Notes under the pieces: generated by a model
Seen by the model: only the letters and a program-made list of their open reading frames with translations
Told to the model about the DNA's origin: nothing
The model's database searches: none
Shown here: positions 1,376 through 58,897 of the stretch, piece by piece
Numbering within the stretch: position 1 is the first letter of the stretch
How the letters are laid out: each line of letters begins with the position of its first letter
Translations under genes and position numbers: made by a program
Origin: Bacillota bacterium
GTDB taxonomy: Bacteria; Bacillota; Clostridia; Monoglobales; Firm-18
Assembly (NCBI GenBank): GCA_022706765.1
Contig: JAKJBX010000002.1
Span: 1 to 64,000 of the forward strand
Direction: 5' to 3'
DNA length: 64,000 nt

Positions 1376-1450
1376 TGACCATTCGCCTTTCCGGCTCACA
1401 AGATCATATGAGGGTTTGACCGCGCGCTTATCGTGAGCCGGATAAGGCGT
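1376..1450 (-). repeat. 75-bp palindromic repeat carrying a ribosome binding site and ATG, copy 1
   Basis: Read on the minus strand, an arm CCTTATCCGGCTCAC is followed by a loop region and the opposing arm GTGAGCCGGAAAGG, then CGAATGGTCA. The second arm is also the ribosome binding site, and the element ends on ATGGTCA four codons before the family start of rplI. A copy of equal length lies at 58692-58766, with the same position relative to the PBP start. The 16-base stretch between GGTCAA and the second arm differs between the copies; nearly everything else is identical. Confidence 0.8.
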
Positions 1451-1531
1451 TAAAATGGTCACTGCCCCAAAATGCGGGCGCACAGCGCCTTCCTTTTTCC
1501 TTTCGCATTTTATGTGCAACCGCCGGGGATA

Positions 1532-7054: not shown

Positions 7055-7068
7055 ATTTATCAACTTAT

Positions 7069-7131
7069 AGGAAATTACGCAAAATCGGTGTAATTTCCGC
7101 GCTCCGGCGAAGTGAATTCATCTGCGCTCGA
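7069..7131 (-). repeat. Dispersed 120-bp multi-hairpin repeat (family R1), truncated copy A
   Basis: This shares the GGAAATTACGC / GCGTAATTTCC hairpin and the following CGCTCCGGCGAAGTGAATTC block with copies at 26442, 47434 and 56374, but lacks the distal half. On the minus strand it lies about 22 bases after the stop codon of the TM2 gene, in the same orientation relative to a gene as two of the other copies. Confidence 0.7.
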
Positions 7132-8857: not shown

Positions 8858-10417
8858 TTATTTTGCGTATTCAATCGAGCGAAGCTCTCTGATGACATTA
8901 ACTTTGATCTGACCCGGATATTCCATCTCCGCTTCAATGCGCTTGACGATATCCCTTGCCAGCAGCACTGTTCCGTCATCGGTGACGTTTTCCGGCTTGA
9001 CCATGATGCGCACTTCCCGTCCCGCCTGAATGGCAAAGGATTTGTCGACGCCCGCAAAGGAGTTTGCGATCTCTTCGAGCTTTTCAAGCCGCTTGATGTA
9101 GGTCTCGATATTCTCCCGCCTTGCGCCGGGGCGTGCGGCGGAAATCGAATCGGCAGCCTGAACCAAACAGGCAACCAGTGTGTTGGGCTGAACATCGCCG
9201 TGGTGCGCCATGATGGCGTGGATGACCTCGTCGTTTTCCTTGTACTTCTTGGCAAGGTCCGCGCCGATGGTGACGTGTGAGCCCTCGACCTCATGGTCGA
9301 TGGACTTGCCGATGTCGTGCAAAAGCCCCGCCCTTTTGGCGATAGCGATGTCGCCGCCAAGCTCGCCCGCCATAATGCCGGCAAGGTGCGAGACCTCGAT
9401 GGAATGCTTCAGCACGTTCTGACCGTAGCTTGTCCTGTATTTGAGCTTGCCCAGAAGTCTGATAATCTCGGGGTGCAGACCATGCACGCCCGTTTCAAAG
9501 GTGGCATGCTCGCCCTCCTGCTTAATGATGTTCTCGACTTCCTTCTTGCTGCGCTCGACGGTTTCTTCGATGCGTGCGGGGTGGATCCTGCCGTCGGTGA
9601 TGAGCTTTTCGAGGGTAAGGCGTGCAACCTCGCGCCTGATGGGATCAAAGCCCGAAAGGATAACCGCTTCGGGCGTGTCGTCGATGATGAGGTCAATGCC
9701 TGTCAGCGTTTCGAGCGCACGGATATTTCTGCCCTCGCGCCCGATGATCCTGCCCTTCATTTCGTCGTTAGGCAGCGGCACGACAGACACAGTCGTCTCG
9801 GCGGAATGGTCGGCGGCACAGCGCTGGATAGCGCCGGCGACGATTTCTTTCGCCTTGCTTTCGGCGTCCTCTTTCGCCTTGTCCTCGATTTCTTTAATCA
9901 TTATTGCCGCTTCGTGACGCACTTCGTTTTCGATGTTTTTCAGCAAATACTCCTTGGCTTCCTCGGCGGTAAAGCCCGAGATTTTTTCAAGCAGGTCGAT
10001 TTGCTTCTGATGGGTCTTTGCAATATCGGCGATTTTGTCGTCAATCTCTTTGTTTTTTTTGGTGAGGGTTTCCTCTTTTTTTTCTAAATTCTCGACTTTT
10101 TTGTCAAGCGTTTCTTCTTTTTGCTGGACCCTGCGCTCCTGCCTTTGCAGCTCGATGCGCCGCTCCTTTACTTCCTTATCGATCTCTGCACGCTGCCGCA
10201 GCACATCCTCCTTGGTTTCGAGAAGGACTTCGCGTTTTTTGTTTTCCGCCGCCTTTTCGGCGTCACTGATGACCTTTTTTGCCTGTTCTTCGGCGCTGCC
10301 GATTTCAGCCTCTGCAATTTTTCGTCTATATGCAATTCCGAGACGGAATGAAACAGCTGAGCCAACAACGATCAAAACCACAGCGATGATAAGCAGAACA
10401 GTCAATAGCGTTTCGAT
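8858..10417 (-). CDS. rny: Ribonuclease Y (apparent ATC start)
   Basis: RNase Y is a membrane-anchored endoribonuclease that starts mRNA decay in Firmicutes. The product of about 519 residues has an N-terminal membrane helix ([19 protein letters not shown]), a long charged coiled coil (about residues 40-190), a KH domain with [15 protein letters not shown], and an HD domain with [12 protein letters not shown]. There is no in-frame ATG near the N-terminus. GGAGG at 10426-10430 lies 8 bases before ATC 10417, which fits family N-termini. GTG 10426 overlaps that ribosome binding site, TTG 10405 is 20 bases away from it, and TTG 10468 has none. I therefore favour ATC, with the exact start uncertain by about 20 residues. 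Confidence 0.93.
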
Positions 10418-10490
10418 ATGTAACACCTCCGAATATATAATAAGCTGTATTATCGTATAATCCGACAAAATAATAATACAACACGATTAT

Positions 10491-10519
10491 ATTTTAATCT
10501 CTTTTGTGCATATTGTCAA
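10491..10519 (-). promoter_or_regulatory. Sigma-A-type promoter for rny
   Basis: On the minus strand, TTGACA (10514-10519) and TAAAAT (10491-10496) are separated by 17 bases. Transcription would start near 10484, giving a leader of about 67 bases before the proposed ATC start. Confidence 0.65.
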
Positions 10520-10610
10520 GATGATTTTTGCTTGACAATAAAGATGCGGATGAAAAAGTGTTCGAGCGCGTACGCGCTTTGTTATGCGCTTGTATTTAAT
10601 CCTAATGAAT

Positions 10611-10654
10611 ATAACCTCCCGTTTGTGGCAATAATCACGGCAACGGGAGGTTAT
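10611..10654 (+). promoter_or_regulatory. Perfect hairpin that sequesters the spoIIR ribosome binding site
   Basis: ATAACCTCCCGTT (10611-10623) pairs perfectly with AACGGGAGGTTAT (10642-10654) across an 18-base loop, and the second arm holds the GGGAGG ribosome binding site of spoIIR, 8 bases before its ATG. If the transcript starts upstream of 10611, translation should be blocked unless the hairpin is opened. A second palindrome, AGCGCGTACGCGCT, lies at 10565-10578. Confidence 0.75.
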
Positions 10655-10657
10655 TTT

Positions 10658-11287
10658 ATGGTCAAATCGTACTTACTCAAAGCCAAACAAAAGATTTTAC
10701 TGTCTCTGTTTATCGGGCTGGTGACAACGGGCGCCGCCATGCAATACCTTTGCACCGTCAAGGCGGACATCGCGCAAAGCGTCGTGCGGCTGCACGTCAT
10801 CGCCGAAAGCGATAGCGACGAGGACCAGCAGCTAAAAATCAAGGTGCGGGATGCGGTCATCGCCTGTTTGAAGGACAAGCTGGACGGGGCGGAAAGCACG
10901 GACGAAACCAAGGCAATTATTGCCGAAGCGCTGCAAAGCATCGCCGATGCGGCAAGCGCGGAGGTTGCGGCAAACGGCTATGACTATCCGGTCACCGCAC
11001 AGCTCGGGCGGTTTGACTTCCCCACGAAGCAGTATGATACGGTGCAGCTGCCGGGCGGAGAATACGACGCGCTGCGCATCATTATCGGCAGCGGGGGCGG
11101 CAGGAACTGGTGGTGCGTCCTGTTCCCGCAGCTTTGCCTGACAGGCAGCGGCGGGACAATGCCCGAAAAAGGGGAGCGGCAGCTTAAAAACGTGCTGACC
11201 GAAGATGAATACAGCATCGTCACCGCCTCGCAGGAAAGCAGCACCCCTGTGAAAATCAAGTTCCGACTGCTCGAATGGTTCCGATAA
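10658..11287 (+). CDS. spoIIR: Stage II sporulation protein R (SpoIIR)
   Basis: SpoIIR is made in the forespore under sigma-F, secreted into the intermembrane space, and triggers SpoIIGA to process pro-sigma-E in the mother cell. The 209-residue product has an N-terminal membrane or signal segment (ILLSLFIGLVTTGAAMQYL) and the family motif VVRLHVIAESDSDEDQQLK followed by VRDAVIACLKDKL. ATG 10658 is chosen because GGGAGG lies just upstream; an ORF extending back to 10532 lacks family similarity. The C-terminal part includes GRNWWCVLFPQLCL, as in other SpoIIR proteins. It is divergent from rny. Its ribosome binding site lies in a 13-bp hairpin. Confidence 0.93.
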   Translation: MVKSYLLKAKQKILLSLFIGLVTTGAAMQYLCTVKADIAQSVVRLHVIAESDSDEDQQLKIKVRDAVIACLKDKLDGAESTDETKAIIAEALQSIADAASAEVAANGYDYPVTAQLGRFDFPTKQYDTVQLPGGEYDALRIIIGSGGGRNWWCVLFPQLCLTGSGGTMPEKGERQLKNVLTEDEYSIVTASQESSTPVKIKFRLLEWFR

Positions 11288-11326
11288 ATCAAACGCCTTT
11301 GGCTCAAAGCCAAAGGCGTTTGATTT
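11286..11326. terminator. Bidirectional terminator between spoIIR and crcB
   Basis: A 19-bp perfect stem (AAATCAAACGCCTTTGGCT with its complement) and a 3-base loop, flanked by A-rich and T-rich ends, overlaps the stop codons of both convergent genes. Confidence 0.9.
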
Positions 11327-11708
11327 ACATAGCCATATGTGACTTGAATGTCCGTGCGATCGCCATACCCGCATAGACGCCTGCCAGGCAGACGACTACG
11401 CTCAACACCGTATAGGCGGCGCCGGTAAAGAACCTGCCCCTTTGAAACAGCACCGCCGTTTCCAAGGAAAATGCGGAAAAGGTGGTGAAGCCGCCGCAAA
11501 GCCCCGTCCTTAAAAACAACGCCGCATTGGGCGAAAGCGCCCCTTTGCCGACAGAAAATTCAGATATGACGCCGATTGCCACCGCACCCGTAAAATTGAT
11601 GAGCATGGTCATCAGCGGATAGTCCCCTGGTGTGGGAACAAGCCCCAAGGCATAGCGCAAGACCGAGCCGATAAAACCGCCCGCCCCCACAAGCACGATT
11701 GCCGACAT
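11325..11708 (-). CDS. crcB: Fluoride ion channel CrcB/FluC
   Basis: This is a 127-residue, four-helix membrane protein of the Fluc family, which exports fluoride as an antiparallel dimer. The signatures are GGFIGSVLRYALG, the NFTG motif in MLINFTGAVAIG, and RTGLCGGFTTFSAFSLE, which holds the phenylalanines and the break that binds sodium. Only one copy is present, so a homodimer is expected. A GGGGGC ribosome binding site lies before the ATG. I looked for a fluoride riboswitch in the 260 bases upstream and saw none; a copy of the R2 element occupies that space. Confidence 0.93.
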   Translation of the reverse strand: MSAIVLVGAGGFIGSVLRYALGLVPTPGDYPLMTMLINFTGAVAIGVISEFSVGKGALSPNAALFLRTGLCGGFTTFSAFSLETAVLFQRGRFFTGAAYTVLSVVVCLAGVYAGMAIARTFKSHMAM

Positions 11709-14228: not shown

Positions 14229-14246
14229 TTTAGGAGGGGAAAATTG

Positions 14247-17200
14247 ATGAAAAAGTTTAAGGCGAACAAACTGTTATCCGTAGTTGTTGCGCTGACAATG
14301 CTGGTATCAACCTTATCCTTCACAGCGTTTGCGTCAGAGAAAAAGGAAACATTTGAAAAAGCGCCGGTGACTGCTATCGAACAAAAACAGGCAGAAACGG
14401 CGGAAAATGCCGAAAAGGAACAGTCAGAGCAGGAACAGGAATGGCTCAGTTTACAGCAGTCCCGCGCACAAGCACGTCAGAGCTTCCAAAGCGCTCCGCT
14501 TGAAAGCGTCGGTATTTTGGTGAACGCGGCAGAGTATACGATTACCGGCACTGTTTACCGCCCGTCGGGAAGCGCGACCGCAAAGGCATTGACGGTATGG
14601 GTATCCGCCTATACGTCCGCGCTGGACAGCGACAACCAAATCATTGGAACCAGCCTTGCGTCAGGAACGACGCCGCAGGTGCAGGTGACGATACCTGCGG
14701 GATCGACATCCGCCGGCTATACCCTGAGGGTCAACAGCGGGAAGTATATTGTATGCGCCCGCCTTATGACAGGCGTTTCCGATATACTGAACAACTGGGT
14801 TTACTACCGGGCTTCCGGCAGCACCGACGTCGAATATGCGGCGGATGTGCTGAATGTCACGGCGAATCAGACCGGAAAGAACATCACGCTGCAAAAGGCT
14901 GACCGGAGCATTTCCGGACGCATAACACTCCCGTCGGGACAAACCGCGCCGTCGGGCGGCGTTTCTTTCGATGTGTTTGCTGAATATTATGATTATACGG
15001 AAGACGGCGGCGATTTTTTCTATGCGAGCTATATCATCCCCGCAGGGCAGGCTTATGCCGACTATACGTTAGGCGTTAATCCCCGCAGCGGCTATCGCGT
15101 CGAGATAAAATCCGACGCGTATATCGGCGGATATTATGCGGGAGGGACCGCGCTGGAAACATGGTACGATTCAGCGACGCCGCTTAATACGGTATCTGCG
15201 TCAATCACGGGTATTAATGCCTATTTAAAAGCCGGCAAAACCATAACGGTCCAGCTGAACTTTGCGGCGGCAGCCGCCGCCTCGGGCAGCCTGATTTTTG
15301 CATGGTATGACGGCAGTGTTGATCCCAACTATGCCTATACGAAAGACTCACGTTGGGTAAATTATTCGGCGGGGCAAACCTCCGCTTCGGTTGCGTTTGT
15401 CGTCGACCAGTCCGTGTACAGCCAAATGCTCGTAAGCTATACGGACATCAGCGGTCTGTCGGGCTATTCGAGTGATTTGTTAAACGCTAAATATTATCGC
15501 ACCACCAACGGCATAACCTCCAAGAAGAGCGAGGCGAGCAAAATTGCCGTTGCGTCCGTTTCGACGGTGACGATTACAGAGCCTCCCGCCTATACGGTTT
15601 CCGGTACCTATGACCTGAACGGGTTTGTACCCGGCGGCAGCGACCCCATATTTGTCGCGGCGGAATTTACGAACGGTGCTGTTTACGGGGCATATTATTG
15701 CCCTGCCGCGGGTGCGTCCGGCGGTGCGTTTGCGTTGAAGGTCCCGCAGTTTGAGGCAAACAACTCCTATGTGCTTTCCGCGTCAAGATGTAAAGCGTAT
15801 GGTCAGCTCATTGGCGGGACGACGGGCTATTCGGCGTCATCCACGCTGACAGGGAATGCCACGGGCAAAACCGTCAGCCTTGCCGCGGAATCCGGCGGCG
15901 ACCTGGTCGAGATTTCGGGAACCTATACATTGCCGGCCGCCGCAGACAGGGACGGGGTCATTATAAATTTGGAATTTAGCAGCTACACCGTTCCTTATTA
16001 CAATACCCGCACCCAATACTACATCCCCAAGGGAACGAGCGCCGTAAACTACAAATTGCGTGTTCCGGCGCCGTACGGGACAATATGGGCAGATCTTATC
16101 CACGCTCCCGAGGCGGTATATCGCTCCGCACGTATAAACGTGGACGGGCAAACGACGGGACTGAACATCACGGCGCAGAACGCTGTGCTCATCACCGGCA
16201 GGATTTCAAGACCGGCGGGCGATTCGGCATCCGCGGCAGTATCAGGATCCGTTCGTTTTGAGGGCAACGTGTATGAGTCCTCATCCGTCAGCATACCGAT
16301 AGGCGTTTCTTTTGCCGATTACAAGCTCAAGCTGCCTTATGGCGCAGGGGTCGGAATCGTCGGGTTCAACCAATATTACGATTCACTGAACGCCGACTAT
16401 TTGCCGGATGCGTATTACGTTGCCGGCGGTGCGTCGAGCTACAACTGGGATGACGCCACAGATATAACCGTCGGAACGTCAAATATGACAAACATCAACA
16501 TCACCCTGATTAAAGCCAAAACGCTCAGCGGGAGCATTACCCTCCCCGCGGGCGCATATGTCAACTCGGGCATTGTGCAGGTACGTGTTGAAGCAAAGTT
16601 TGACAATACGGGCTATACATATAACACATATGTGGACATCGGACCGGGCATGACGAATATTCCTTATGTCATCGCCATTCCGCCTGATTTGGATGAAGAC
16701 ACCTGGATAGAAGTTAGGGTAGACAATTATGGAAACGCCGACACGAATTTGATGGTCGGATACAGCTACTATTACCGCAACGGAAGCTTGACAAGGGAAT
16801 TTGACCAGAGGAGCTATATCAACGTCCCTGTCTCCGGAAAAACAGGGGTGAATTTTACGCTGCCCTATGCCAAGGCGGTGGTCAGGGGTTCCGTTACCCT
16901 TCCGGAAGAGGTCTCCTCCGGCTATTACTATTTTTATATGAAGGTTTTGTGTGTAAATTCGGGGAATGTTTATGAAACCAGCGCTTATGTTGATACGTCC
17001 TGGGGCTTGACCGTGCCGTTTACGGTGACTATTCCTTTCGAGGAAACCGACACGGCCTATAAATTCAATTATGTGTCATACAGCACAGGTTTCAGAGCCG
17101 ATTTGTATGTCAACGGCGACGGCTCCTTCGCGGCGAATTGGGATGCTGCGGACACCTATCTGTTTACGGCAAACAAACAGTTCCATTTCACGCCGCGTTA

Positions 17201-18263
17201 TACCGCGCCCGTTCAGATGACCTATACGCCGATAACCCTGCCGTATTCCGGAACGGGGACAATTTCCAGCGGCGAAGATGCGTTGTCGCTCAATGGAAAG
17301 GCGGCGAAAGGGTATGCGTTTAACGCTACGGCGGGGCAGGAAATTGTCATTACGCTGAATTCAACCGCGTTTGACGCCTATTTGTATTTGCTGGATTCGG
17401 CTAAAAACGAAATCACGCATGACGACGACGGCGGTTTCGGCTCTAATTCCCAAATCACATACACCATCCCGTCCGACGGCGTTTACTACATCCAGGCGAC
17501 CCAGTATTCCGAAACGGGTGGGGATTTTGAAATCCGTGTGTTTGAACAGGCACCCATACCTCAGATAATCTATACGCCGATCACCTTGCCGTATTCCGGA
17601 ACGGGGACAATTTCCAGCGGCGAAGATGCGCTGTCGCTCAATGGAAAGGCGGCGAAAGGGTATGCGTTTAACGCCACGGCAGGGCAGGAAATTATTATTA
17701 CGCTGAATTCAACCGCGTTTGACGCCTACCTGTATTTGCTGGATTCGGCTGAAAACTACATCACCTCTGACGACGACAGCGGCGGAAACCGTAATTCCAG
17801 GATCGCATACACCATCCCATCCGACGGCGTTTACTACATCCAGGCGACCCAGTATTCCGAAACGGGCGGGGACTTTGAAATCCGCGTATTTTCACCGACC
17901 ACCGTACGACCGATAGATTATGTTGACGACGTTGTGCTGAATATGTACAATGAGAATTACAATCCGGTGGACTTTATCGGGGATGCGGCATCCTTCTATA
18001 TGTACTTATATAAAGCGGACACCGCCTCATCGCTTGACGTTGACGTGTGCGTTGCGCAGTATTCAAAAGAAGGGAAACTTCTTTCGATGACCACCATTCC
18101 CTATAACGCCAACGCAGGTCACGAATACGTGCTGGTCAACAGCCTCCTGCCGGCTGCGGCGGAGGAAGGCGCATACAATGTCGTGCTGGTGTGGAAAAAC
18201 GGCACAATGGAGCCGGTCGTATCCAGAATTAAAGGGAACGCCTGGACACCCGCTGCGCCTTAG
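14247..18263 (+). CDS. Large secreted multidomain surface protein with two PPC domains
   Basis: The 1338-residue product begins with a classic signal peptide (MKKFKANKLLSVVVALTMLV, ending FTAFAS) and an acidic, Glu/Gln-rich linker. About eight diverged modules of 100-150 residues follow, each opening with a phrase such as YTITGTVYRPSG, SISGRITLPSG, TLSGSITLPAG or VVRGSVTLPEE, resembling carboxypeptidase-regulatory beta sandwiches. Two nearly identical pre-peptidase C-terminal (PPC) domains come next (about residues 990-1220), then a C-terminal domain of roughly 110 residues. I see no protease, SLH, LPXTG or dockerin motif, so anchoring and substrate are unknown; adhesion or carbohydrate binding is a guess. 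AGGAGGGG precedes the ATG. Confidence 0.8.
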   Translation: MKKFKANKLLSVVVALTMLVSTLSFTAFASEKKETFEKAPVTAIEQKQAETAENAEKEQSEQEQEWLSLQQSRAQARQSFQSAPLESVGILVNAAEYTITGTVYRPSGSATAKALTVWVSAYTSALDSDNQIIGTSLASGTTPQVQVTIPAGSTSAGYTLRVNSGKYIVCARLMTGVSDILNNWVYYRASGSTDVEYAADVLNVTANQTGKNITLQKADRSISGRITLPSGQTAPSGGVSFDVFAEYYDYTEDGGDFFYASYIIPAGQAYADYTLGVNPRSGYRVEIKSDAYIGGYYAGGTALETWYDSATPLNTVSASITGINAYLKAGKTITVQLNFAAAAAASGSLIFAWYDGSVDPNYAYTKDSRWVNYSAGQTSASVAFVVDQSVYSQMLVSYTDISGLSGYSSDLLNAKYYRTTNGITSKKSEASKIAVASVSTVTITEPPAYTVSGTYDLNGFVPGGSDPIFVAAEFTNGAVYGAYYCPAAGASGGAFALKVPQFEANNSYVLSASRCKAYGQLIGGTTGYSASSTLTGNATGKTVSLAAESGGDLVEISGTYTLPAAADRDGVIINLEFSSYTVPYYNTRTQYYIPKGTSAVNYKLRVPAPYGTIWADLIHAPEAVYRSARINVDGQTTGLNITAQNAVLITGRISRPAGDSASAAVSGSVRFEGNVYESSSVSIPIGVSFADYKLKLPYGAGVGIVGFNQYYDSLNADYLPDAYYVAGGASSYNWDDATDITVGTSNMTNINITLIKAKTLSGSITLPAGAYVNSGIVQVRVEAKFDNTGYTYNTYVDIGPGMTNIPYVIAIPPDLDEDTWIEVRVDNYGNADTNLMVGYSYYYRNGSLTREFDQRSYINVPVSGKTGVNFTLPYAKAVVRGSVTLPEEVSSGYYYFYMKVLCVNSGNVYETSAYVDTSWGLTVPFTVTIPFEETDTAYKFNYVSYSTGFRADLYVNGDGSFAANWDAADTYLFTANKQFHFTPRYTAPVQMTYTPITLPYSGTGTISSGEDALSLNGKAAKGYAFNATAGQEIVITLNSTAFDAYLYLLDSAKNEITHDDDGGFGSNSQITYTIPSDGVYYIQATQYSETGGDFEIRVFEQAPIPQIIYTPITLPYSGTGTISSGEDALSLNGKAAKGYAFNATAGQEIIITLNSTAFDAYLYLLDSAENYITSDDDSGGNRNSRIAYTIPSDGVYYIQATQYSETGGDFEIRVFSPTTVRPIDYVDDVVLNMYNENYNPVDFIGDAASFYMYLYKADTASSLDVDVCVAQYSKEGKLLSMTTIPYNANAGHEYVLVNSLLPAAAEEGAYNVVLVWKNGTMEPVVSRIKGNAWTPAAP
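17223..17893 (+). repeat. Tandem 348-bp duplication encoding two PPC domains
   Basis: Units starting at 17223 and 17571 are almost identical over long stretches (for example from CCGTATTCCGGAACGGGGAC). They differ mainly in the segment coding KNEITHDDDGGFGSN versus ENYITSDDDSGGNRN. The high DNA identity points to recent duplication or gene conversion. Confidence 0.9.
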
Positions 18264-20788: not shown

Positions 20789-22531
20789 ATGAATAGATTT
20801 ATCGGCTTGATTTTATCGGCGGTTGTGGTTTTCGGTATAATCAGCGTTACCCCTGGTTGGGGATTTGAGAAAACCGTATTTGCGGAAAAGGACGGAATTT
20901 ATACCTACACCGTTTCGGAGGACAAAGCAATTATTACGAAATGCAGCACCTCGGCAAGCGGTGAGATTACCATTCCTTTAACCCTGGGAGGCTACCCGGT
21001 AACGGGTATCGGCGATTATGCGTTTGACAATCGCTCCGGGCTGACATCGGTCACCATTCCGAGCGGCGTGACAAGTATTGGTAAAGGTGCGTTTTCCAGT
21101 TGTCTCGGACTGACGTCAATCATAATTCCGGGCAGCGTGACAAGCATAGGCGATTGGGCGTTTTACGATTGTACCGGACTGACCTCGGTCACCATTCCGA
21201 ACGGTGTGACAAGTATTGGCAACAGTGCGTTTTACGCTTGTACCGGACTGACATCGGTCATAATCCCAAGCAGCGTGGCAAGTCTTGGAGACGGTGTGTT
21301 TTCCTTTTGCGCCGGGCTGACATCGGTCACAATTTCGAGCGGTGTGACAAGTATTGGCGACAATGTGTTTTCCAAGTGCATCAATCTGCGTTCCATAAAT
21401 GTGGACAGCAATAATCAGCAGTATTCAAGTCAGGACGGAGTGCTTTTTAACAAAGATAAAACCATTCTTATTACATGCCCTCGCGGCGAAAGCGGGGATT
21501 ATTCTATTCCAAGCGGTGTGACAAGTATTAGTGATTATGCGTTTTACGGTTGTTCCGGACTGAAATCGGTCACCATTCCGAGCGGCGTGACAAGTATTGG
21601 CGATTATGCGTTTGCCGGTTGCTCCGGACTGAAATCGGTCGCAATTCCGAGCGGCGTGACAAGTATTAGTGATTATGCGTTTCACCTTTGCTCCGGACTG
21701 AAATCGGTCACCATTCCGAGCGGCGTGACGAGTATTGGCGATTATGCATTTGCCGGTTGCTACTGGCTGACATCGGTCACAATCCCAAGCAGCGTGACAA
21801 GCATTGGCGACAGTGCGTTTTACGATTGTTCCGGACTGACCTCGGTGACAATTACAAGCGGTGTGACAAGTATTGGCGATTATGCGTTTCGCGGTTGCTA
21901 CGGACTGAAATCGGTCACAATCCCAGGCAGCGTGACAAGCATTGGCAACAGTGTGTTTTACGGTTGTTTCGGACTGACGTCGGTCACAATTTCGGACGGT
22001 GTGACAAGTATCAGTGATGATGCGTTTGAAGGTTGCTCCGGACTGACATCGGTCGTAATCCCAAACAGCGTGACAAGCATCGGTTCCAGGGCGTTTTACA
22101 ATTGCTCCGCATTGAGATACGCACTGTTTTTAGGGAACGCGCCGACGGTCGGATCGGGCTTATTCAACTATGTGTCCACGGAGTTTAAGATTTGCGTATT
22201 CGGGAAGGGTACCGGATGGACAACGCCTTTCTGGAAGGGGTACAGCACAAAGATATTTACGCACGATGTGGGGATTATCGACAGGGGAGGCGGCTTGTTC
22301 ACAGCCGTCATTAAAACCCCGAACGAAACAACTGCGACCGCCTTTCTTGCGTTCTATGACGGAGGCAAGCTGATAAAGACGGTGCCGCGAACGGTGGCGC
22401 TTGACCGGAATGTTCAGGACATACCCTTTAACAACGTCGAGATGCCGGACGAAACGGACTCGTACAAGATAATGCTTTTCGACAGCGCGAAGAACATCAG
22501 ACCCATCGCCGAATTTGCGTCTGTACCATAA
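20789..22531 (+). CDS. BspA-type leucine-rich repeat secreted protein
   Basis: The 580-residue product has a signal peptide (MNRFIGLILSAVVVFGIISV, ending VFA). About 16 near-identical 23-residue LRR_5 repeats of the form GLTSVTIPSGVTSIGDYAF run from about residue 75 to 455, split once by INVDSNNQQYSSQDGVLFN, the usual BspA inter-repeat insert. A non-repeat C-terminal domain of about 125 residues has no SLH or LPXTG motif. In this family the proteins are cell-surface adhesins of gut and oral bacteria. At the DNA level the repeats have a 69-bp period and are strongly homogenised. AAAGGAG precedes ATG 20789. It is a single-gene unit. Confidence 0.9.
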   Translation: MNRFIGLILSAVVVFGIISVTPGWGFEKTVFAEKDGIYTYTVSEDKAIITKCSTSASGEITIPLTLGGYPVTGIGDYAFDNRSGLTSVTIPSGVTSIGKGAFSSCLGLTSIIIPGSVTSIGDWAFYDCTGLTSVTIPNGVTSIGNSAFYACTGLTSVIIPSSVASLGDGVFSFCAGLTSVTISSGVTSIGDNVFSKCINLRSINVDSNNQQYSSQDGVLFNKDKTILITCPRGESGDYSIPSGVTSISDYAFYGCSGLKSVTIPSGVTSIGDYAFAGCSGLKSVAIPSGVTSISDYAFHLCSGLKSVTIPSGVTSIGDYAFAGCYWLTSVTIPSSVTSIGDSAFYDCSGLTSVTITSGVTSIGDYAFRGCYGLKSVTIPGSVTSIGNSVFYGCFGLTSVTISDGVTSISDDAFEGCSGLTSVVIPNSVTSIGSRAFYNCSALRYALFLGNAPTVGSGLFNYVSTEFKICVFGKGTGWTTPFWKGYSTKIFTHDVGIIDRGGGLFTAVIKTPNETTATAFLAFYDGGKLIKTVPRTVALDRNVQDIPFNNVEMPDETDSYKIMLFDSAKNIRPIAEFASVP

Positions 22532-47416: not shown

Positions 47417-47433
47417 GCGTTTTGCTCATTTAG

Positions 47434-47550
47434 AGGAAATTACGCAAAACCGGCGTAATTTCCGCGCTTCGGCGAAATGAATCCGCCTATGCTTACCCTC
47501 GCGGGGAGAGAAGATGCGTTTTGGAAAGCGCTACGTACTGAAACGCTTTT
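47434..47550 (+). repeat. Dispersed 120-bp multi-hairpin repeat (family R1), copy C
   Basis: It runs from AGGAAATTACGCAAAACCGG to GAAACGCTTTTTC and is nearly identical to copy D at 56374 and, reversed, to copy B at 26442. It ends 8 bases before the promoter of the cation exporter gene. Unlike the others it is not in the 3' orientation of a preceding gene. Confidence 0.85.
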
Positions 47551-47558
47551 TCAAGCGC

Positions 47559-47587: not shown

Positions 47588-47604
47588 GTATTTAATGTAA
47601 TATT

Positions 47605-47697
47605 AACAGGTCGTGTACAAAGCATTGTGCACTGACCGGGTCGGATTTCCGACAGCGAGTGATGACTCGTGGGACGCTTTTTGTTCCACGAGTTTTT
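47605..47697 (+). ncRNA. NiCo (czcD-motif) riboswitch with terminator
   Basis: A four-helix junction can be drawn. P1 is AACAGG with the later TTTGTT; P2 is GTGTAC/GTGCAC; P3 is GTCGG/CCGAC; P4 is GCGAGT/ACTCGT around GATG; with GGGAC after P4. This is the layout of the czcD/NiCo riboswitch, and the gene downstream is a cation diffusion facilitator, as in known cases. A terminator stem ACTCGTGGGA/TTCCACGAGT plus T6 shares bases with P4 and P1, so metal binding would favour read-through. I could not test the motif with a covariance model. Confidence 0.75.
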
Positions 47698-56257: not shown

Positions 56258-56364
56258 ATTTATATGGTCGAAAATCCAAGGAATTTCCGACCATATAAAA
56301 GTATTAATTCATTCCTTGATAAAGGGTTTCGGCTACGCACCAAAAAGTGCCGAAGGTACTTTTT
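56258..56364 (+). repeat. Hairpin-core composite element (family R2), complete copy
   Basis: Hairpin 1 is a 12-bp stem (TTTATATGGTCG, 56258-56299). The core ATTCCTTGATAAAGGGTTTC GGCTACGCACC follows at 56311-56341, then hairpin 2 AAAAAGTGCC/GGTACTTTTT. It lies between the PBP gene and murA. Confidence 0.8.
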
Positions 56365-56373
56365 TAAACTTAT

Positions 56374-56491
56374 AGGAAATTACGCAAAACCGGCGTAATT
56401 TCCGCACTCCGGCGAAATGAATTCGCCTGCGCTTACCCTCGCGGTGCGAGAAGATGCGTTTCGGAAAGCGCTGCGCGCCGAAACGCTTTTT
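56374..56491 (+). repeat. Dispersed 120-bp multi-hairpin repeat (family R1), copy D
   Basis: It is nearly identical to copy C and, viewed on the minus strand, begins exactly at the stop codon of the PBP gene, as copy B does at the SLH gene. Confidence 0.85.
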
Positions 56492-58691: not shown

Positions 58692-58766
58692 TGACCATTA
58701 GCCTTTCCGGCTCACTGAATTTTATAGAAGCTTGACCACGCGCTTATCGTGAGCCGGATAAGGCGT
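58692..58766 (-). repeat. 75-bp palindromic repeat carrying a ribosome binding site and ATG, copy 2
   Basis: This has the same length and arms as the copy at 1376-1450, ending AATGGTCA at the same distance before the family start codon of the PBP gene. Nearly all differences fall in a 16-base stretch of the loop. Confidence 0.8.
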
Positions 58767-58897
58767 TGCTCTGAACACTATTTATTATAGCATAACTGCG
58801 GCAAAATACAACGCAAAATATGTATATTTTTTGGCTTTTTGTGAAATAATTACCTTAAATTATCTTAAATCATCAAAAGTACACGGGAGGCTTTTAT

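Follow-up and report, generated by a model that had tools for sequence, protein, structure and literature searches.

In the 64,000-nucleotide stretch of DNA that was analyzed here (the window), the ribosome-binding site of spoIIR lies in one arm of a hairpin whose other arm occupies the spacer of a predicted sigma-F promoter, and we consider it probable, at roughly three chances in four, that this hairpin is a read-through lock built into the promoter. The spacer that separates the -35 box from the -10 box, 15 bases long, would double as the complement of the ribosome-binding site. RNA polymerase carrying sigma-F would start downstream of the spacer and make a forespore mRNA that has a leader of about 15 bases and can be translated; transcripts entering from upstream, whether through read-through, antisense transcription, or spurious starts, would carry both arms, fold the Shine-Dalgarno (SD) sequence into a 13-bp stem, and stay untranslated. 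SpoIIR would be made only from mRNA that sigma-F initiated. SpoIIR triggers the processing of pro-sigma-E, which sets off the mother-cell program, and the control of spoIIR has been described as transcriptional. Leaky expression of SpoIIR should be costly, and a promoter that encodes the silencer of all other transcripts would explain how the trigger is insulated without terminators in compact genomes. The features concerned are the following.

8858..10420, - strand: rny (RNase Y), divergent upstream neighbor (Pfam RNase_Y_N, HD, KH; 5' end approximate)
10607..10611, + strand: -35 box GAATA of the predicted sigma-F/G promoter (motif learned from 198 spoIIR upstream regions)
10611..10623, + strand: left arm of the hairpin (anti-Shine-Dalgarno), ATAACCTCCCGTT, in the -35/-10 spacer
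10627..10635, + strand: -10 box GGCAATAAT, inside the hairpin loop, 15 bases after the -35 box
about 10640..10645, + strand: predicted sigma-F transcript start, placed from the position of the -10 box (leader about 13-18 nt)
10642..10654, + strand: right arm of the hairpin, AACGGGAGGTTAT, which holds the SD sequence
10645..10650, + strand: SD sequence GGGAGG of spoIIR, within the right arm
10658..11287, + strand: spoIIR coding sequence, 209 aa

The identity of the gene is clear from its matches to PF09551 (163.6 bits) and TIGR02837 (170.8 bits, with a cut-off of 151.9). A sequence-only reading of this DNA had described a perfect 13-bp hairpin with an 18-base loop and GGGAGG in the right arm, and both the sequence and the fold bear this out: all 13 pairs are Watson-Crick, three bases (10655-10657) separate the right arm from the ATG at 10658, and the arms reach 10608-10623 and 10642-10657 if one T.T mismatch is allowed. 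The RNA fold of 10590-10680 has an energy of -27.5 kcal/mol (z -4.6), which none of 200 shuffles equaled. Inverted repeats with arms of at least 13 bases and loops of at most 30 did not occur in six Markov randomizations of the 64-kb window, and the real window holds about ten distinct ones, many of them terminator-like, so the repeat at spoIIR is not due to chance, yet such repeats are not unique in the window. The strong repression that the same reading expected from the stem is predicted for longer transcripts, in which the SD sequence is sequestered (unpaired probability of 0.000 for 5' ends at 10560-10612), but not for the predicted sigma-F mRNA. For transcripts starting at 10620-10645 the predicted mean unpaired probability is 0.12-0.32, and a modest residual pairing with the first codons would leave the SD sequence partly free. 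Beyond the other end of the gene, a perfect 20-bp inverted repeat (11285-11327), which begins at the stop codon and separates spoIIR from the convergent crcB, is a probable bidirectional terminator.

Of the 119 ORF starts with an SD sequence that were scored in the window, the SD lock of spoIIR is the fourth strongest, and the two strongest are copies of a dispersed leader element. A 76-nt element is present at 1376-1451 (-) and 58692-58767 (-), with further copies (L314-L331) that bring the number in this genome to about 19, 76-88% identical to the first copy; about 20 copies are found in a genome of the same family (G001). Nearly every copy lies directly over a gene start; among the genes, Pfam identifies those for ribosomal protein L9 and a class A PBP, and a look at the sequences suggests FabF, SecE, P-II, DNA polymerase I, FtsY, FeoB, and others. 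Its TCCGGCTCAC/GTGAGCCGGA hairpin ends at the ribosome-binding site, and the first codons are conserved (often M-V-I-I-M). It has no match in Rfam and is a candidate for a new leader RNA or a mobile start-site element. The window also contains a dispersed palindromic repeat, GGAAATTACGC...GCGTAATTTCC (7056-7128, 47421-47551, and 56361-56491; 79-89% identical), a NiCo riboswitch at 47592-47679 (+, 40.7 bits), 348-bp direct repeats at 17213-17915 inside a 1339-aa ORF (14244-18263), and an array of 69-bp direct repeat units at 20999-22162.

The promoter was recognized with a motif of two blocks, TGTATAAA ... TGKCAATAMT, learned from 198 dereplicated spoIIR upstream regions. A score of at least 11 bits was reached by 139 of the 198 real regions and by 6 of 198 randomized ones. 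The window promoter scores 22.3 bits against the motif learned from its relatives, matches GNATA-N15-GGNAATANT exactly, and shows the sigma-F-dependent pattern GNATA-N15-GGNNANANT near the start of spoIIR, and we predict it to be of near-perfect sigma-F/sigma-G type. The left arm shares its first base with the end of the -35 box and stops three bases short of the -10 box. Because the -10 box lies in the loop, past the left arm, the predicted spoIIR mRNA would lack that arm wherever its exact start may be, and no opener would be needed.

This arrangement speaks against the view that the hairpin forms in the main spoIIR mRNA as a regulated translational lock that RNA, protein, or another cue opens. 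The stem is certainly very stable, and a weaker hairpin over the ribosome-binding site in B. subtilis sigG mRNA lowers translation 2-4 fold (PMC5942855). Against this, the promoter boxes overlap the left arm, a search of the hairpin site with Rfam 15 at gathering score gave no regulator match, and across relatives only the pairing and the promoter are conserved, not the sequence of the arms or the loop. We regard a regulated lock as very improbable. The earlier proposal of a lock within the spoIIR mRNA that a trans-acting RNA or protein must open does not agree with a sigma-F/G promoter that puts the start downstream of the left arm, and the aside in the same proposal, that a promoter in the loop region would skip the left arm and permit translation, matches the sequence found here.

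To examine whether the two arms fit each other more widely, 222 spoIIR loci were collected, oriented by the motif, and given start codons, and 198 dereplicated regions were used. Each right region (-22..+3) was folded against its own left region (-80..-23) and against that of every other locus. This swap test retains promoter motifs and composition and isolates the fit between the two arms of a single locus; it was used instead of covariation counting because gaps split the arms in a MAFFT alignment of the three family members. The real pairs averaged -11.74 kcal/mol, compared to -9.02 for swapped pairs (sd 0.18; z -15.3), a mean gain of 2.72 kcal/mol. At p<=0.05 there were 53 significant loci among the 198 (9.9 expected), and at p<=0.01 there were 21 (2 expected). 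When only the promoter spacer was paired with the SD region, Watson-Crick helices of at least 10 pairs occurred in 3.9% of real and 0.09% of swapped combinations. The stems are unrelated in sequence between loci, as in L051 (ACAGCACCGTCTATAC/GTATAGGCGGTGCTTGT) and L087 (AATCTCCCTGTTT/AAACAGGGAGATT). Together, these comparisons point to selection, beyond chance, for arm pairing at spoIIR, with sequences that differ between species. The sequence-only reading had held that a transcript start downstream of 10623 would mean that the hairpin is absent from the mRNA or not selected; the hairpin does lie outside the predicted sigma-F mRNA, but the second part fails because the pairing is strongly conserved across species while the sequence changes.

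Locks are unevenly distributed. About three quarters of the spoIIR loci show no significant lock, and on a FastTree phylogeny of the proteins the 53 locked rows require at least 33 changes, which means that the lock is often gained and lost or often crosses the detection threshold. In locked loci with a confident promoter, the left arm lies mostly (at least 59% of its pairs) upstream of the predicted start in 49 of 50 and wholly upstream in 38 of 50. Swapped stems, however, also lie mostly upstream (88% of pairs versus 96% for real ones) and are wholly upstream in 73% versus 78%, so short leaders largely account for the exclusion of the left arm, which is not diagnostic alone. Five loci (L165, L187, L196, L162, and L216) show a variant arrangement: their left arm is the -10 box itself (GTCAATAC), which pairs with GTATTGAC just before the start codon.

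The relatives closest to the window that could be compared belong to the same family but to other genera, as no other genome of the genus was among those listed. In two of them the promoter is the same and a stem begins at the corresponding position behind the -35 box, with bases that differ from those of the window stem. The stem is AAAACCCCTC/GAGGGGTTTT in L018 (stretch GAATAAAACCCCTC...GAGGGGTTTT) and AAAACCTTCCG/CGGAG(G)GGTTTT in L006 (stretch GTATAAAACCTTCCG...CGGAGGGGTTTT). The stem has been re-made in two other genera of the family, but it is absent from the same-family loci L002, L015, and L019.

The palindromic sequence overlaps the promoter, and it could also be a DNA operator or form a cruciform. 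The antisense strand likewise shows an excess of pairing (36 versus 55 loci), as any inverted repeat would. However, the arm sequences vary from species to species and from gene to gene within one genome, the SD sequence is usually covered by one arm, and interior mismatches on the sense strand are G.U rather than A.C (16 versus 4 overall, p 0.012; within locked loci 9 versus 3, which is not significant). The G.U excess and the position of the SD sequence in the stem favor pairing of RNA rather than DNA, and an operator or cruciform seems highly unlikely to us.

A more serious competitor is intrinsic termination: the inverted repeat and its T-rich tail would stop transcripts that come in from upstream, and the sigma-F transcript, lacking the left arm, would escape. 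Over the nine bases that precede the start, locked loci have 4.25 T compared to 2.56, and L070 and L108 have a short loop and, following the stem, 6-7 consecutive T. An intrinsic terminator should have a GC-rich stem, a short loop, and an uninterrupted U-run; in the window, however, the loop has 18 bases and the T run is interrupted (TTATTTTATG), and a terminator scan reported nothing at this site. Pairing with the A-rich bases that follow the -35 box should likewise produce the T bias. We consider a terminator unlikely as the main explanation. It would have the same insulating purpose at the level of transcription and could act together with a translational lock, and in some relatives part of the effect may be terminator-like.

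The read-through lock presupposes incoming transcripts. Since rny, the upstream neighbor, is divergent, the window offers no obvious source of read-through, and any incoming RNA there would have to come from antisense or spurious transcription. A sigma-70-like match on the + strand at 10413-10441 (10/12) is a candidate source of incoming transcripts and no more. A palindrome at 10511-10540, TATTGTCAAG/CTTGACAATA, places TTGACA on both strands, and one of these is the -35 box of the likely rny promoter. Across the loci, locks were more frequent where a codirectional upstream gene ended no more than 200 nt from the start codon (39 of 110 versus 14 of 88, Fisher p 0.002), but after tree correction the association was not significant (median p 0.25-0.38); a test of upstream-gene orientation gave p 0.037 before tree correction.

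The same design recurs at other sigma-F genes of this genome, which were sought by their promoter pattern. There are four exact matches to GNATA-N15-GGNAATANT, and three of them carry locks: spoIIR (-26.6 kcal/mol), murA (-23.3 kcal/mol), and the gene for a SpoIIQ-like M23 protein (-24.7 kcal/mol), whose best NCBIfam model is SpoIIQ, below the cut-off (66.7 versus 250 bits). The fourth match (L335, -13.3 kcal/mol) and the one-mismatch promoter sites before SD-bearing starts (-5.9 to -17.6 kcal/mol) have no locks. The sigG gene, directly behind sigE, is also locked (GAATAAAAACACCCCGGAAGG ... CCCTTCGGAGGTGTTTTTTTG; -32.8 kcal/mol for the fold of the surrounding stretch); its -10 box is poor by the motif (2.6 bits), and the predicted promoter rests on the -35 box and on position. 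In the class sample, the gain over swapped pairs was 4.97 kcal/mol for sigG, 2.25 for spoIIQ-like genes, 1.29 for spoIVB, and 0.32 for gpr, an order in keeping with early sigma-F genes and not with late forespore ones.

We tentatively extend the proposal to the regulon, and think it nearly an even bet that sigma-F promoters in many Clostridia (at spoIIR, sigG, spoIIQ, and murA) carry an anti-Shine-Dalgarno sequence in or around the -35/-10 spacer that has repeatedly re-evolved. If this rule is true, translation would require initiation at that promoter and would amount to a check of which polymerase made the mRNA, and the overlap of promoter and lock would be a sequence signature for finding sigma-F genes. 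Chance self-complementarity of the SD sequence and a pyrimidine-rich spacer would agree with the fact that most spoIIR loci have no significant lock, and a mild excess is seen at control gene starts too (43 significant of 400 other gene starts in the same loci versus 20 expected, mean gain of 0.68 kcal/mol). Genes downstream of spoIIR in L036 (near 4735) and L100 (near 4647) have an SD lock beside sigma-F/G-like boxes, and these may explain part of the control excess. Chance is contradicted by the swap test (z -15), by the recurrence at four sigma-F genes of this genome, and by the arms re-made in two related genera, and we give it hardly any credence.

No report of such a lock at spoIIR was found in the literature searched, which included few subscription papers. 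The closest precedent is sigG (spoIIIG) of B. subtilis. As set out in PMC5942855, which credits the idea to Masuda 1988 and Sun 1991, the proposed arms come together and block the ribosome-binding site solely in mRNA that reads through from the sigE operon upstream; mRNA made from PsigG, the sigma-F promoter of the gene itself, cannot form the hairpin. Read-through transcripts of spoIIGA-sigE-sigG have been reported in B. subtilis and C. acetobutylicum (PMC3789822). At spoIIR, too, the arms are predicted to pair only in incoming transcripts. The gene is a different one, the lock has been re-made with differing sequences in many Clostridia and is present at several sigma-F genes of one genome, and spoIIR in the window, unlike B. 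subtilis sigG, has no codirectional upstream gene. The spoIIR lock would extend the 1988 proposal to other genes and to a whole class. A second, small hairpin inside B. subtilis sigG mRNA resembles it in that occlusion of the ribosome-binding site lowers the expression of a forespore regulator (PMC5942855), but that hairpin forms in and damps the sigma-F mRNA itself, whereas the sigma-F mRNA of spoIIR should be free of the stem. In phage T4, the late genes I-TevI, e, soc, and segB have hairpins over their ribosome-binding sites; their late mRNA lacks the 5' arm, and their early read-through mRNA is untranslatable (PMC2988022). As judged from its sequence, spoIIR resembles them in having its own promoter placed such that the mRNA lacks the 5' arm; T4 differs in using phage late promoters and an RNA polymerase program and no sporulation sigma factor. 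In the fold-back inhibition of the IS10 and IS50 transposases, external transcripts fold over the transposase start and internal ones do not. This resembles the spoIIR lock in its dependence on transcript origin and differs from it in belonging to a mobile element. The lock proposed at spoIIR is of a known kind, at a new gene, and probably far more general than has been recorded.
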